64,000 bases of DNA, taken from Rhodanobacter sp. (GTDB lineage Bacteria; Pseudomonadota; Gammaproteobacteria; Xanthomonadales; Rhodanobacteraceae). Both the position numbers and the translations under genes were made by a program. Below the pieces are notes generated by a model. The model made no database searches, was not told where the DNA came from, and saw only the letters and a list, made by a program, of their open reading frames with translations. Positions 37,892 through 50,895 of the stretch are shown piece by piece (within the stretch, counting starts at the first letter, position 1; every line of letters begins with the position of its first letter). The DNA lies in contig JANJTA010000005.1 in assembly GCA_024711345.1 (NCBI GenBank), positions 62,001-126,000 of the forward strand. Reading direction: 5' to 3'.

Positions 37892-39226
37892 TCAGAGGAT
37901 GTAGCGGCTGAGGTCTTCGTCCCTGGCCAGGACACCCAGGCTTTTATCCACATGTTCGGCGTCGATCAGGTACTTTTCGCCGGATTTGTCCGCGGCCTCA
38001 TAGGAAATCTTCTCCAGCAGACGCTCCATCACGGTGTGCAGGCGGCGGGCACCGATGTTCTCGGTGCGCTCGTTCACCTGGAACGCGACCTCGGCCAGCC
38101 GATCGATGCCCGAGTCGGTGAACTCGATGATGACGCCCTCGGTGCCGAGCAGGGCGGCGTACTGCTTGGTCAGCGCGTTGTGCGGCTCGCGCAGGATGCG
38201 CTTGAAGTCATCCACCGACAGCGCGGAGAGCTCCACCCGGATCGGCAGGCGGCCCTGCAGCTCGGGAATCAGGTCCGACGGCTTGGCCAGCGAGAACGCG
38301 CCGGAGGCGATGAACAGCATGTGGTCGGTCTTCAGCGGGCCGTACTTGGTGGACACGGTGGAGCCTTCCACCAGCGGCAGCAGGTCGCGCTGCACGCCCT
38401 CGCGGCTGACCCCGGAGTGGCCGTAGTCGGAGCGCTGCGCCACCTTGTCGATCTCGTCGATGAACACGATGCCGTTCTGCTCGGCCGCTTCTACCGCCTG
38501 CGCACGCACTTCCTCGTCGTTGAGCAGCTTGCCGGCCTCCTCGTCGATCAAGAGCGGCCGCGCCAGCTTGATCGCCAGCTTGCGGCTCTGCGTCTTGGCG
38601 CCGCCGAGGTTCTGGAACATCTGGCGCAGCTGTGCGCCCATTTCCTCCATGCCCGGCGGCGACATGATCTCCACGCCCACGTTCATGGCGAAATCCAGCT
38701 CGATCTCGCGTTCGTCCAGCGCGCCCTCGCGCAGCTGCTTGCGCAGCTTCTGGCGAGTGTCGCTGTCGGTGGCCGGCGCGGCGTCATGGCTCCAGTCGGT
38801 CGGCGTCTGCCGGCGCGGCAGCAGCGCGTCCAGGATGCGGTCCTCGGCGCGGTCCTCGGCCTGGCTGCGCACGCGCTTGATCGCCTGCTCGCGGGTCAGC
38901 TTGTAGGCCACGTCGGCCAGATCGCGGATGATCGACTCCACGTCCTTGCCCACGTAGCCCACCTCGGTGAACTTGGTCGCCTCCACCTTCACGAACGGCG
39001 CGTTGGCCAGCGTGGCCAGGCGCCGCGCGATCTCGGTCTTGCCCACGCCGGTGGGGCCGATCATCAGGATGTTCTTCGGGGTGACCTCGTTGCGCATGGC
39101 CGGCTCCAGCTGCATGCGCCGCCAGCGGCTGCGCAGCGCCACCGCCACCGCGCGCTTGGCGTCGTGCTGGCCGATGATGTAGCGGTCGAGTTCGTTGACG
39201 ATTTCGCGGGGGGTCAGTTCGGACAT
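37892..39226 (-). CDS. hslU: HslU ATPase subunit of HslVU protease
   Basis: [53 protein letters not shown]-terminal LSRYIL. Confidence 0.98.
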
Positions 39227-39348: not shown

Positions 39349-39885
39349 CTACAGCTCTTCGATGGACGTGTTGTGATTGGTGTAGATGCAGATGTCGCCG
39401 GCGATCTTCAGCGCCTTCTCGACGATGGTGCGCGCGTCCAGCTCGGTGTTCTCCAGCAGGGCCATCGCGGCGGACTGGGCGAACGGGCCGCCCGAGCCGA
39501 TCGCGATCAGGCCGTGCTCGGGTTCCACCACGTCGCCGTTGCCGGAGATCAGCAATGAGGTTTCCCGGTCGGCCACCGCCAGCATCGCCTCGAGCCGGCC
39601 GAAGCGGCGGTCGGTGCGCCATTCCTTGGCCATCTCCACCGCCGCGCGGGTGAGGTTGTTGTTGTGCTTCTCCAGCTTCTGCTCGAACAGTTCGAACAGG
39701 GTGAACGCGTCGGCGGTGGCGCCGGCGAAGCCAGCCACCACCTCGCCGGTCTTGCCCAGCCGGCGCACCTTGCGCGCGTTGCCCTTCATCACCGTGTTGC
39801 CCAACGTGACCTGGCCGTCGCTGCCGATCACGACGCGGCCGCCGCGGCGCACGCAGACGATGGTGGTGGCGTGGAAGGATTCCAT
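39349..39885 (-). CDS. hslV: HslV protease subunit
   Basis: [59 protein letters not shown]. Confidence 0.98.
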
Positions 39886-43673: not shown

Positions 43674-44222
43674 TCAGTCATCGGCCCATGCCGCGAGCGC
43701 CGGGTCCTGGCGCAGTCGCGCCCATTCGAGTTTCAGCCAGGGCGTGAAGCGCTCCGGCCAACGGGCGATCTCGCGATCGAGCGCGGCCGGTGTGACGAAA
43801 CGCCAGGCCGCGACCTCGGCGGGATTGGCGCGCACCGGTTGCGTGCAGGTGCCGGCGTAGACCCAGCACAGTTCGTGCTCGGCGCCGAGGTCGCGGTAGT
43901 CGGCCTGGTACTCGAACTTGAACAGGTAGCGCAGCGGGCAGCGCATGCCCAGCTCCTGCTGCAGGCGTCGTTCGGTGGCCTGCTCCATGCTTTCGCCCTG
44001 GCGCGGATGGCTGCAGCAACTGTTGGCCCAGTAGCCGGGCCACAGCCGCTTGCCGCGGCTGCGTTGCTGCAACAGCAGCTCGCCGTGCCCGTTGAAGACG
44101 AACAGCGAGAACGCACGATGGCGCTGGCCGCGACCGTCGTGGGCGGCCGCCTTGCTGGCGTAGCCGACCGCGCGATCGTCGGCATCGACCAGGATCAGCT
44201 GCTCGGCTTCGGAGGAGACCAT
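43674..44222 (-). CDS. idi: Isopentenyl-diphosphate delta-isomerase, type I (Nudix)
   Basis: AFSLFVFNGHGELLLQQRSRGKRLWPGYWANSCCSHPRQGESMEQATERRLQQELG. Confidence 0.95.
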   Translation of the reverse strand: MVSSEAEQLILVDADDRAVGYASKAAAHDGRGQRHRAFSLFVFNGHGELLLQQRSRGKRLWPGYWANSCCSHPRQGESMEQATERRLQQELGMRCPLRYLFKFEYQADYRDLGAEHELCWVYAGTCTQPVRANPAEVAAWRFVTPAALDREIARWPERFTPWLKLEWARLRQDPALAAWADD

Positions 44223-44241
44223 GGGGTGGCGTAGCGACGCG

Positions 44242-46581
44242 TCAGCCAAAGGACACCTCCAGCGCCTGGTAGCCGGCGTCGCGCATCGCGCGGGCCACGC
44301 GCGCGCCGCCCTCGGGACACAGCGCGATCACCGCGCCGCCGCCGCCGCCGCCGGTCAACTTGGCGCCCAGCGCGCCGTGCTCGCGCGCCAGCTGGACCAG
44401 TTCCTCGATCTCGCGGCTGGACACCTGCAGCGCGTTCAACTGGCCCTGGCAGATGTTCATCAGCTCGCCGAGCTCGGCCAAGTCGCGGGCTTGCAGCGCG
44501 TCGAGCGCGTGCCGGGTCAGCAGGTCGATCTCGTCGAAGATGCGCTCGTAGCGCGCCGGGTGCTGCAGCCATGCCTGGCGCACGCGTGCCACCATCCTCG
44601 CGGTCAGGCTCTCGCTGCCGCTCAGGCCGATCACCAGCGGCAACGGCTGCGGCAGCGCGAGCGGACGGATCGTCGCCGGCGCGCCGCGCCGGTACAGCAG
44701 CGCCTGGCCATGGGTGGCAACCGTGTTGTCGATGCCCGAGGGCGTGCCGTGGGCGATCTTCTCGCACTCGAACGCCAGCGCGCAGACGCTGGCGTCGTCC
44801 AGGTCCAGCGCGCAGTGCCGGTCGAGCGCGCGGATCACCGCCACCGCCAGCGCCGCCGAACCGCCGAGCCCCATCGCCCGCGGCATCTCCGGCGCCACCT
44901 GGATGCGCAGGGCGCGCCGGCTCAGGCCGAGGCGTTCCAACAGCAGCGTCAGCGACTGCGCAAAGGAACCCGGGCGCGCCGGCTGCTGCAGGCGTTGCTC
45001 GATGCCCCAGCGCGGGATCAGCAGCGTAGTGCCATCGCGGGCGTCCTCCACGCGCGCGCGGATCGCCAGCGGCAGCGGCGCGGCGATCGCGTGGCGGCCG
45101 TACACCACGGCGTGCTCGCCGAGCAGGATCACCTTGCCGTGGCCGGTCGCCCATTCCGGCGTGCCGGCCCGCGGCCGGCCGTGGGCCGCGGGCCCCGGCG
45201 CCGCCTGCCCGCCCAGCTCGGCCACGATCAGTTGCGCCTTCCACAGCTTGATCTCGCCGTCGGCCAGCAGGCGTTCCACCACCTGATCGAACATCTGCGG
45301 CGTGGCGCCGGCCGCCAGCGCCACGCTGCGCGCGTGCAGGGTCATGTGGCCTTGCTGGATGCCATCGGTGACCAGCGCCCGCAAGGCGGAGAAGTTCTGC
45401 GCCAGGCCGACGGCAGCCATCATCTCGGCCAGTTCGCGAGCACCGGGCGAACCCAGCAGGCGGTGGTTGATCGCCACCATCGGGTTGGCCTGCAGCGAGC
45501 CGCCCACGGTGCCGACCTTGAGCGGCAGCTCGATGCTGCCGACCAGGTCGCCCTGCGCGTTGCGCGACCAGCGGGTCAGCGCGCGATAGCCCTGGTCGCG
45601 CGCGGCGTAGGCGTGCACCGCCGCCTCCAGCGCGCGCCAGTCGTTGCCGGTGGCCAGCGCCACCGCATCGACGCCGTTCATGACGCCCTTGTTGTGGGTC
45701 GCGGCGCGGTACGGGTCGACCAGCGCGAGGTCGTTGGCCAGGATGATGCCGTCGCGCACCTGTCCGCCGTCGTGGCCCTTGCCGGCCAGCGCATGCGCCG
45801 GGATCACCGCGCTGGCGCGCACCAGCGCGCGGTCGGTCAGGTTGGACAGGATGCGCAGGCAGGCCTTGCCGCCGGTGATCGCCTCGGCCAGCGGGGCCAC
45901 GCCCTCGCACATCGTGTTGACCAGGTTGGCGCCCATCGCGTCGCAGGTGTCGACCAGCAGGTGCAGCACCAGCATGTCGGGGCCGCCGTCCGGTGCGGCG
46001 TGGATCAGCACCTCGACGTCCGTCACGCCACCGCCGCGCGCGACCATGTTCGGGTGCAGGCTGTTGGCCAGGTTGATGATCTCCTCGCGCCGCTGCAGCA
46101 GGGCCGTGCGCGCCCTGCCCGCGTGGGCCACGCCGGTCAGCTGGACCTGGCCGATCAGCAACGGCCGGTCGCTCGCGGTGGTGAAGCCGCCGCAGCCGCG
46201 CACCAGCTTGGCGGCGGCGCTCAGCGCGGCCACGATCGACGGCTCCTCGACCACCAGCGGCACCACGTAGTCCTTGCCGTTGATCAGGAAGTTCAGGCCC
46301 AGCCCCACCGGCAACCCCATCACGCCGATGACGTTCTCGATCAGCTTGTCGGCCTGCGCCGGTTCCAGCCGCTGCGCACCGCTGGTCAGCGCGCGGTGAT
46401 CGGCCTGCGTCAGCAGTCCGCGGCTGCGCAGCAGCTGCAGTCGCTCGGTCACGCCCAGCCGATGGAAGCCGGGCAGGCGGGCAGGATGCTCGGGCGCGCT
46501 CGCCGCGCGGTCGTGCGGCATGTCGTCGGCGCAGGTGGCGGCAGGCGCGTCGGCCTGCCCGATGGCGGGTAACTGGTCCAC
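44242..46581 (-). CDS. Fusion protein: class II HMG-CoA reductase (N-terminal) + mevalonate kinase (C-terminal)
   Basis: HMGR part: VVEEPSIVAA, MGANLVNTMCEGVAP, ATHNKGVMNGVDAVALATGNDWRA, GLAQNFSALRALVTDGIQQGHMTLHAR. MvK part after about residue 475: GHGKVILLGEHAVVYGRHAIAAPLPLAIRA, MPRAMGLGGSAALAVAVIRAL, GTPSGIDNTVATHG, GAKLTGGGGGGAVIALCP. One uninterrupted 779-aa ORF with a GTG start. Confidence 0.93.
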   Translation of the reverse strand: MDQLPAIGQADAPAATCADDMPHDRAASAPEHPARLPGFHRLGVTERLQLLRSRGLLTQADHRALTSGAQRLEPAQADKLIENVIGVMGLPVGLGLNFLINGKDYVVPLVVEEPSIVAALSAAAKLVRGCGGFTTASDRPLLIGQVQLTGVAHAGRARTALLQRREEIINLANSLHPNMVARGGGVTDVEVLIHAAPDGGPDMLVLHLLVDTCDAMGANLVNTMCEGVAPLAEAITGGKACLRILSNLTDRALVRASAVIPAHALAGKGHDGGQVRDGIILANDLALVDPYRAATHNKGVMNGVDAVALATGNDWRALEAAVHAYAARDQGYRALTRWSRNAQGDLVGSIELPLKVGTVGGSLQANPMVAINHRLLGSPGARELAEMMAAVGLAQNFSALRALVTDGIQQGHMTLHARSVALAAGATPQMFDQVVERLLADGEIKLWKAQLIVAELGGQAAPGPAAHGRPRAGTPEWATGHGKVILLGEHAVVYGRHAIAAPLPLAIRARVEDARDGTTLLIPRWGIEQRLQQPARPGSFAQSLTLLLERLGLSRRALRIQVAPEMPRAMGLGGSAALAVAVIRALDRHCALDLDDASVCALAFECEKIAHGTPSGIDNTVATHGQALLYRRGAPATIRPLALPQPLPLVIGLSGSESLTARMVARVRQAWLQHPARYERIFDEIDLLTRHALDALQARDLAELGELMNICQGQLNALQVSSREIEELVQLAREHGALGAKLTGGGGGGAVIALCPEGGARVARAMRDAGYQALEVSFG

Positions 46582-48743: not shown

Positions 48744-49247
48744 TCAGTCGAGCGACCGCGCGTAGCGCCAGGCATCGGCGCCGTCTTCGTAGTAGTGCGC
48801 GTAGCGGCCGGCGCGGCGGAAACCGTGGCGTTCGTACAGCCGGATCGCGGCGTCGTTGTCGGTACGCACCTCCAGCTTCAGCGCGCGGCAGCCGCGGCGG
48901 CGCACGGCGGCGTCGGCGGCGACCAGCAGTGCGGAGCCGACGCCCTGGCCGCGCGCTTCCGGCGCGGTGGCCAGCGAGTACAGACGGGCCAGCGCGCTGC
49001 CCTTGCGGAAGAACAGCACGGCGCTGCCGAGCAGCCGGTGGTGATTGGCGCCGGCCACCAGCACCAGCGCGGAGTCGCTGTCCAGGTGGCGGCGGTACTG
49101 CGCGCGGCTCAGCCGGTCGCCGTCGAAGCTGCGCAGCTCCAGTGCGACCAGTGCGTCGAGGTCGCTCGCCAGGGCGCGCCGCACGCGCACGCCGGCGGCA
49201 GGCGCGTCGGGGCGTGGCGGCGGAGATGGTGATGGCGGGGTCGGCAC
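48744..49247 (-). CDS. GNAT family N-acetyltransferase
   Basis: LYSLATAPEARGQGVGSALLVAADAAVRRRGCRALKLEVRTDNDAAIRLYERHGFRRAGRYAHYYEDGADAWRYAR. Confidence 0.92.
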   Translation of the reverse strand: MPTPPSPSPPPRPDAPAAGVRVRRALASDLDALVALELRSFDGDRLSRAQYRRHLDSDSALVLVAGANHHRLLGSAVLFFRKGSALARLYSLATAPEARGQGVGSALLVAADAAVRRRGCRALKLEVRTDNDAAIRLYERHGFRRAGRYAHYYEDGADAWRYARSLD

Positions 49248-49410: not shown

Positions 49411-50895
49411 ATGACCCGTCTGGTCGTCGTTGTCGAAAAAGCCTCGGACTGGAGTTCGTACTACCCGTCCGTCGACGTGATGAGTGCGATGGACTACCTG
49501 CGCACGCCGGTCGGCGGCGACGACGAGCGCACCCACGTGATCAACCTGTGCCGCAGCTACAAGTACCTGGGCACCGGCTACTACGTCTCGCTGCTGGCCG
49601 AGGCGCGCGGGCACAAGGTGATGCCGTCGGTGCGCACGGTGAATGACCTGCGCCGGCGCTCGCTGTACGGCCTGGACATCGACGACCTCAACGCCAAGCT
49701 CACCCACTTCCTGCCGGCCGGCGGGCGCGACACCACCGACTTCGGCACCCTGGTCTACTTCGGCGAGACCGCCTACCCGGCGCTGCAGGACCTGGCCCGG
49801 CAGGTGTTCGAGATGTTCCCCTGCCCGCTGCTGCGCATCGAGTTCGAGCGCGACCGCGTGTGGCAGGTCAGCTCGATCAAGCCGGTCGGCCTGCACACCC
49901 TGGTCGACACCCAGGAGGATGCCTTCGCCGAAGAGCTCGACCGCTTCTCGCGCAAGTTGTGGCGCAAGCCGCGCGCGCGGCGCCAGTACCGCTACGACCT
50001 GGCGATGCTGGTCGACCCGAAGGAACAGATGCCGCCGTCGAACCGGAAGGCGCTGAAGTCGTTCATCGCGGCGGGCCGCGAGCTCGGCATCGAGGTCGAC
50101 CCGATCGGCAAGAACGACTACCAGCGGCTGGCCGAGTACGACGGCCTGTTCATCCGCGAGACCACCGCGTCCGACAACCACACCTACCGCTTCGCCCACC
50201 GCGCCGAGAAGGAAGGCATGGTGGTGATCGACGACCCCAGCTCGATCCTGCGCTGCACCAACAAGATCTACCTCAACGACCTGATGGTCTCGCGCAAGCT
50301 CGCTGTCCCTCGTACGGAGATCCTCTACCGCGACGACAGCAAGGGCATCAAGGAAGTGGTGGCCCGGCTCGGCTTCCCGCTGGTGCTGAAGATCCCGGAC
50401 GGCTCGTTCTCGCGTGGCGTGGTCAAGGTCGAGGACGAGGCGGCGCTGGCGCATGCGGCCAGCGGCCTGTTCCAGCACAGCGCGCTGCTGCTGGCGCAGG
50501 AATACGTCTACACCGAGTTCGACTGGCGCATCGGCGTGCTCAACCGCGAACCGATCTACGCCTGCAAGTACTACATGTCGCGCGGCCACTGGCAGATCTA
50601 CAACCACGGCGCCAAGGGCACGGCGAAATCCGGCGGCTTCGAGACCATCGCGCTGAAGGAGGCGCCGGCGGCGGTGGTCAAGCTGGCGCTGAAGGCGACC
50701 CAGCCGATCGGCGACGGCCTCTACGGCGTGGACCTGAAGCAGGTCGGCAACCGGCCGGTGGTGATCGAGGTGAACGACAACCCGTCGATCGACGCCGGCG
50801 TCGAGGATGCCTACCTCGGCGAGGAGCTGTACCTGCGCGTGATGCGGGAGTTCCTGCGCCGGATGGAGCGCAAGCGCCAGGGCGCTCCGCACTGA
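49411..50895 (+). CDS. RimK family ATP-grasp ligase with RLAN-type N-terminal domain
   Basis: MTRLVVVVEKASDWSSYYPSVDVMSAMDYL; ATP-grasp core FPLVLKIPDGSFSRGVVKVEDE, FDWRIGVLNREPIYACKYYM, VIEVNDNPSIDAGVED. Confidence 0.92.
   Translation: MTRLVVVVEKASDWSSYYPSVDVMSAMDYLRTPVGGDDERTHVINLCRSYKYLGTGYYVSLLAEARGHKVMPSVRTVNDLRRRSLYGLDIDDLNAKLTHFLPAGGRDTTDFGTLVYFGETAYPALQDLARQVFEMFPCPLLRIEFERDRVWQVSSIKPVGLHTLVDTQEDAFAEELDRFSRKLWRKPRARRQYRYDLAMLVDPKEQMPPSNRKALKSFIAAGRELGIEVDPIGKNDYQRLAEYDGLFIRETTASDNHTYRFAHRAEKEGMVVIDDPSSILRCTNKIYLNDLMVSRKLAVPRTEILYRDDSKGIKEVVARLGFPLVLKIPDGSFSRGVVKVEDEAALAHAASGLFQHSALLLAQEYVYTEFDWRIGVLNREPIYACKYYMSRGHWQIYNHGAKGTAKSGGFETIALKEAPAAVVKLALKATQPIGDGLYGVDLKQVGNRPVVIEVNDNPSIDAGVEDAYLGEELYLRVMREFLRRMERKRQGAPH

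Follow-up and report, generated by a model that had tools for sequence, protein, structure and literature searches.

Isoprenoids, among them membrane lipids and quinones, can be made via the mevalonate pathway. In a 64,000-nucleotide stretch of DNA from the soil bacterium Rhodanobacter (the window, as the whole stretch analyzed is called below), a first-pass annotation had described one reverse-strand frame of 779 codons with a class II HMG-CoA reductase (HMGR), a linker and a GHMP-type mevalonate kinase (MvK), and had suggested that such a protein would join the consecutive steps from HMG-CoA to mevalonate and phosphomevalonate. The question raised by this locus is whether the two enzymes are indeed one protein and, if so, what this protein would do in its bacterium. 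Judging from the sequences, the gene fusion is real, old and conserved, and the frame most probably encodes one bifunctional biosynthetic enzyme for the conversion of HMG-CoA via mevalonate to 5-phosphomevalonate.

Architecture of the fusion gene

The coordinates of the frame, together with Pfam and NCBIfam searches, confirmed its described anatomy (Table 1). The translation of 779 codons contains no internal stop, and Pfam recovered all three domains on this one protein: HMG-CoA_red at residues 44-417 (365 bits; PF00368 model positions 2-368 of 368), GHMP_kinases_N at 544-623, and GHMP_kinases_C at 692-771. Among NCBIfam models, the HMGR half is matched by TIGR00532 (391.6 bits, cut-off 259.95), and the kinase half by the equivalog model TIGR00549 (244.2 bits, cut-off 163.05; model positions 2-276 of 276).

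Table 1. Features of the fusion gene and of its operon in the window.
Feature	Position	Strand	Evidence
HMGR-mevalonate kinase fusion ORF, 779 aa, GTG start	44242..46581	-	HMMs; frame likewise fused in 80 further loci
N-terminal extension, residues 1-33, predicted disordered	46483..46581	-	pLDDT < 50 at residues 1-30
Class II HMG-CoA reductase domain, residues 34-455, including C-terminal flap with His	45217..46482	-	PF00368, TIGR00532; alignments with PDB 6dio/1qax/5wpj; residue conservation
Interdomain linker, residues ~456-476, Ala/Gly/Pro-rich, predicted unstructured	45154..45216	-	pLDDT < 50 at residues 459-475; length in 81 sequences
Mevalonate kinase (GHMP) domain, residues 477-779	44245..45153	-	TIGR00549, PF00288, PF08544; Leishmania MvK 2hfs; conservation
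Diphosphomevalonate decarboxylase (mvaD), 347 aa	47628..48671	-	TIGR01240, 279.6 bits (cut-off 171); PF22700, PF18376
Phosphomevalonate kinase-like GHMP kinase (pmk), 339 aa	46609..47628	-	TIGR01220, 116 bits, best family, below cut-off (165.7)
Type 1 isopentenyl-diphosphate isomerase (idi), 191 aa	43674..44249	-	NF002995, 177 bits; TIGR02150, 151.5 bits; both over cut-off

The HMGR motifs named in the annotation are all located within residues 112-418 (EEPS at 112, the Lys of THNKG at 298, the Asp of TGNDWRA at 314, and GHMTLHAR at 411-418). The catalytic residues of this half (E112/E113, K298, D314, and the flap His, H412/H416) are invariant in 81 of 81 fused sequences, so that the equivalents of E83, K267, D283, and H381 of Pseudomonas mevalonii are kept in all of them. 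The same invariance in 81 of 81 sequences is seen in the kinase half for K483 (motif-1 Lys), S575 (GLGGSA loop), E607 (Mg-ligand), and D618 (catalytic, PSGxDN). Both halves being full-length and over their curated cut-offs, with catalytic residues conserved throughout and a mevalonate operon around them, the protein would join the two steps as had been suggested.

The Pro/Ala/Gly linker, initially located at about 45145-45220, was placed here at about 45154-45216. It varies in sequence among the 81 fused proteins, and its length ranges from 16 to 61 residues. An AlphaFold2 model built from a 62-sequence input (pLDDT 82, pTM 0.56) has two ordered domains and values below 50 for residues 459-475; as expected, these scores fit two ordered domains on a predicted flexible tether. 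A Foldseek search with the model retrieved class II HMGRs (P. mevalonii and Delftia, E 1e-42) and then mevalonate kinases, that of Leishmania first (E 3e-20). The N-terminal extension aligns among Rhodanobacter relatives, and outside the genus most matches begin near residue 34. A plus-strand ORF of 783 aa (44221-46572) lies antisense over the fusion gene and was taken to be a high-GC shadow frame.

The annotation had also raised the concern that a missed stop codon or a frameshift might separate the domains. This concern is settled: codon-position GC is constant across the HMGR, linker and kinase parts, and 80 related loci are open through the junction. Joining of two genes by a sequencing or assembly error is a practically negligible explanation, given an identical architecture at 81 loci in independent assemblies and codon GC that does not change through the junction, and an artefact of any of these kinds was ruled out.

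Distribution and evolution of the fusion

The relatives considered here are the 80 best full-length matches in GTDB genomes, ranked by whole-length score. At least 80 other genomes carry the fusion, and in 80 of these 80 best relatives it lies in one frame, with about 51-96% identity; ranking by whole-length score favors fused genes, and the unbiased figure is therefore that of an evenly drawn sample of 369 genomes of the same class, where a full-length fused match was found in 9 genomes and a tenth match ends at a contig edge. In this sample, stand-alone class II HMGRs share only ~38-51% identity with the query, and stand-alone MvKs ~23-32%. The best 80 relatives are mostly gammaproteobacterial, many of them being metagenome-assembled genomes (MAGs), and they include Nevskia as well as named isolates (Dyella, Wenzhouxiangella, Salinisphaera halophila, Marinobacter gelidimuriae, Rhodanobacter lindaniclasticus, and Rhodanobacter thiooxydans). 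The Rhodanobacter relatives (R. lindaniclasticus, R. thiooxydans, and one Rhodanobacter MAG) have 85-96% identity. A few relatives are labeled Myxococcales, Planctomycetota, Thermoanaerobaculia, Calditrichaceae, and Nakamurella; these are the names given to MAGs, and misbinning or transfer may lie behind them.

In domain trees with thin outgroup sampling (10 non-fused HMGR and 6 non-fused MvK sequences), the fused HMGR domains are monophyletic (local support 0.93), as are the fused MvK domains (0.91). Since each domain is monophyletic and the catalytic residues are invariant in the 81 sequences, one old fusion event appears to fit best.

Mevalonate operon

The fusion is the third gene of a four-gene operon on the minus strand with the order mvaD-pmk-[HMGR-MvK]-idi, which is kept in most of the related loci that have enough flanking sequence. 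The ATG of pmk overlaps the mvaD stop codon as TGATG, the GTG start of the fusion follows pmk after 27 nt and has AGGA upstream, and idi overlaps the 3' end of the fusion by a few bases. HMGR, MvK, phosphomevalonate kinase (PMK), and MvaD are all encoded together in the window; the PMK assignment is below the family cut-off, which makes the step after the fusion the least certain one.

Upstream of the operon, a gene for a RimI-like GNAT acetyltransferase (48744-49247, minus strand) is divergent from that of an ATP-grasp ligase with an RLAN N-terminal domain (49411-50895, plus strand). Elsewhere in the window, an AAA ATPase gene adjoins that of a proteasome-type subunit (37892-39226 and 39349-39885, minus strand), consistent with HslUV.

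Proposed reactions and cofactor use

We infer both activities, the use of NADPH, the oligomeric state, and the physiological role from the sequence. The N-terminal class II HMGR, probably able to use NADPH, would reduce HMG-CoA in two hydride steps to mevalonate, and the C-terminal GHMP kinase would convert mevalonate with ATP to 5-phosphomevalonate, while the flexible linker would keep the two domains close and the two steps in a 1:1 ratio. The annotation's further suggestion, that mevalonate could be channeled between the domains, is speculative. Class II HMGRs work as dimers, and each dimer of the fusion would carry at least two kinase domains. The 5-phosphomevalonate would then be converted by Pmk, MvaD, and Idi of the same operon to isopentenyl diphosphate (IPP) and DMAPP.

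NADH is the cofactor of the P. mevalonii HMGR, in which Asp146 is located at the adenine ribose of this cofactor. At the aligned position, the window protein and 80 of the 81 fused proteins have His, and the S. pneumoniae enzyme, which uses NADPH, has Tyr; the acidic NADH-selecting residue of the degradative P. mevalonii-type HMGR is absent from the window protein. In the Ruegeria HMGR, Asp154 at the cofactor site controls the use of NADH or NADPH (PMC12292504). From these residues we infer NADPH or dual cofactor use for the fusion.

The best NCBIfam model of the HMGR half, TIGR00532, bears the name "degradative, NAD," and the nearest solved relatives are the enzymes of Delftia and P. mevalonii; both would suit a reductase half that oxidizes mevalonate to HMG-CoA for catabolism, as in P. 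mevalonii, or acts reversibly, the kinase being incidental. Such a role is nevertheless very improbable, as a kinase is fused on, the operon holds pmk, mvaD, and idi, the NADH-selecting Asp of P. mevalonii is replaced by His, and most carriers have no detected canonical Dxr, so that biosynthesis would need the fusion. The family name is probably misleading here because of the His at the Asp146 position, and a degradative HMGR by name was set aside on this position and on the operon content.

Sources of HMG-CoA and IPP

The pathway context of the biosynthetic enzyme was surveyed in 46 genomes, namely the window's own and 45 other carriers. In the window's genome (a 99.8% complete assembly), HMG-CoA synthase (HMGS) was found neither with PF01154 nor with an HMGS of Nevskia as query nor with a profile of 10 HMGS sequences, and the same three query types did not find it in three further Rhodanobacter genomes (G369, G370, and G406). 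A 22-bit match to the HMGS profile in R. thiooxydans was rejected, the 324-aa frame being probably a FabH-like synthase. Among the 45 other carrier genomes, the PF01154 search detected HMGS in 25. The MEP pathway genes dxs and dxr are present in the window's genome; Dxr was found in all four Rhodanobacter genomes searched, and canonical Dxr over the cut-off in 8 of the 46 genomes.

By these searches, the 46 genomes fall into those with HMGS only (22), HMGS and a weak Dxr-like match (3), canonical Dxr only (8), and neither (13), while none has both; three Dyella genomes with HMGS carry such a weaker Dxr-like match. The mutual exclusion of HMGS and Dxr has a Fisher p of 0.0008, a value that ignores relatedness and MAG incompleteness and describes a pattern only. 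In one of the 13 genomes with neither gene, G371, a fragment of HMGS lies at the edge of a contig. Neither HMGS nor canonical Dxr was detected in G376, G379, G383, G384 (the isolate Wenzhouxiangella sediminis), G394, G397, G403, G404, G407, and G411. Since most carriers lack a detectable canonical Dxr, the mevalonate route via the fusion is probably the sole source of IPP in most of them.

In Rhodanobacter, a mevalonate operon with no detected HMGS occurs in the same genome as MEP genes, an unexpected and suggestive combination. As no HMGS was found in the window's Rhodanobacter, the pathway as encoded appears headless, and HMG-CoA would have to come from elsewhere, most simply from leucine catabolism; with dxs and dxr in the genome, Rhodanobacter may be able to do without the operon. 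That the Rhodanobacter operon is a decaying relic, or only salvages external mevalonate, the MEP pathway being present and HMGS lost, would agree with the finding of Dxr and no HMGS in all four Rhodanobacter genomes searched. This is unlikely, however: all four operon genes are intact in the window, with strong third-position GC and tight overlaps, the active sites are invariant, and the fusion gene is kept in R. lindaniclasticus, R. thiooxydans, and the Rhodanobacter MAG at the high identity given above.

A leucine-fed pathway is possible, though rather doubtful. In carriers without HMGS, HMG-CoA would arise from leucine breakdown via isovaleryl-CoA, methylcrotonyl-CoA carboxylase (MCC), and methylglutaconyl-CoA hydratase, and the fusion would pull it to mevalonate phosphate before its cleavage by HMG-CoA lyase. 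This reading competes with the classical acetyl-CoA-fed pathway and not with the two catalytic steps of the fusion. Apart from the searches that found no HMGS in four Rhodanobacter genomes by three query types, it is favored by a gene for an MCC beta-like subunit in the window's genome (G000:C8:25522-27168; best PDB match 3u9r, MCC beta, 874 bits), adjoined by an acetyl-CoA acetyltransferase gene, and by MCC beta matches in 11 of the 13 carriers with neither HMGS nor Dxr detected. However, the score of a PDB chain bearing the name propionyl-CoA carboxylase beta is close to that of MCC beta, and MCC alpha, methylglutaconyl-CoA hydratase, and other leucine genes were not identified in the 19.5 kb examined near the MCC beta gene. 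MCC beta is also common in carriers with HMGS, hence there is no contrast between the two groups of carriers, and a divergent HMGS could escape the searches, many of the comparison genomes being incomplete MAGs. A precedent is Trypanosoma brucei, which puts leucine carbon into sterols (PMC5993337). We treat the leucine route as a hypothesis, since the MCC beta gene is its sole genetic support. With still less confidence, the fusion may be regarded as the gateway to an HMGS-independent mevalonate pathway in Rhodanobacter and other HMGS-less carriers: it would convert leucine-derived HMG-CoA directly to phosphomevalonate, and the tethered kinase would render the first step effectively irreversible and prevent a leak of mevalonate.

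Hopanoid genes near the operon

Nevskia, Dyella, and others have hopanoid genes on the flanks of the operon (HpnH in 30 loci, HpnB in 23, HpnA in 13, and HpnI in 12), which suggests a joint mevalonate-to-hopanoid island in such loci. In the genomes of Nevskia, Dyella, and their relatives, HpnN and a squalene synthase-like gene also occur close by; the hopanoid clustering is seen at L012, L015-L019, L028-L030, L035, L036, L042, L076, and other loci. Squalene-hopene cyclase was not found in four Rhodanobacter genomes, and a hopanoid role in the window's Rhodanobacter was dropped on this ground. An HMG-CoA synthase of ~490 aa is encoded near the operon in 12 loci; divergent ~490-aa synthases are found at L016 (13455-14936), L090, L060, and L069, that of L016 scoring below every NCBIfam HMGS cut-off (TIGR01835, 178 vs. 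360 bits). The mevalonate pathway and squalene synthase were noted for Wenzhouxiangella in a passage of a genome paper on that genus (PMC7691419), a passage which does not mention the fusion.

Significance and comparison with known systems

A natural and evolutionarily stable HMGR-kinase protein offers a ready test of whether proximity or irreversibility raises flux, and is a possible part for engineering. The fusion is also a marker of gammaproteobacteria that seem to have exchanged the MEP pathway for the mevalonate pathway, and the carriers with no detected HMG-CoA synthase make leucine-fed isoprenoid synthesis directly testable.

The first-pass annotation knew of no characterized protein with this architecture, and searches of mostly open-access literature likewise gave no such protein and no report that mentions a fusion of HMGR with mevalonate kinase. 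A 2026 preprint on bacterial HMGR diversity (PMC13370337) gave no match for mevalonate kinase or for such a fusion. The fusion is apparently undescribed, while automatic domain databases very probably list the HMGR + GHMP architecture already.

The best-known bacterial HMGR fusion is the acetoacetyl-CoA thiolase-HMGR protein MvaE of enterococci. In MvaE of Enterococcus faecalis, the partner is a thiolase, which catalyzes an upstream, non-consecutive step and is N-terminal to HMGR, whereas here it is the next kinase, C-terminal to HMGR; the window protein has no thiolase domain, its Pfam domains being HMG-CoA_red and GHMP only. The class II HMGRs of P. mevalonii and Delftia acidovorans (PDB 1qax and 6dio) share the fold and the catalytic residues with the HMGR half, at 48-49% identity in structural alignment, but are single-domain proteins, and Asp146 of the former is His in the fusion. 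For the kinase half, the nearest solved relative is the mevalonate kinase of Leishmania major (PDB 2hfs/2hfu; 156 bits), which has the same motifs and about 35% identity but is a stand-alone enzyme; this half of the window protein (44245-45153, minus strand) is nearer to the trypanosomatid MvK than to solved bacterial or archaeal MvKs. Both MvaE and IspDF are listed as fused isoprenoid enzymes in a 2026 review (PMC13001223). IspDF of Mesorhizobium loti is likewise a natural fusion, but it belongs to the MEP pathway and combines non-consecutive steps.
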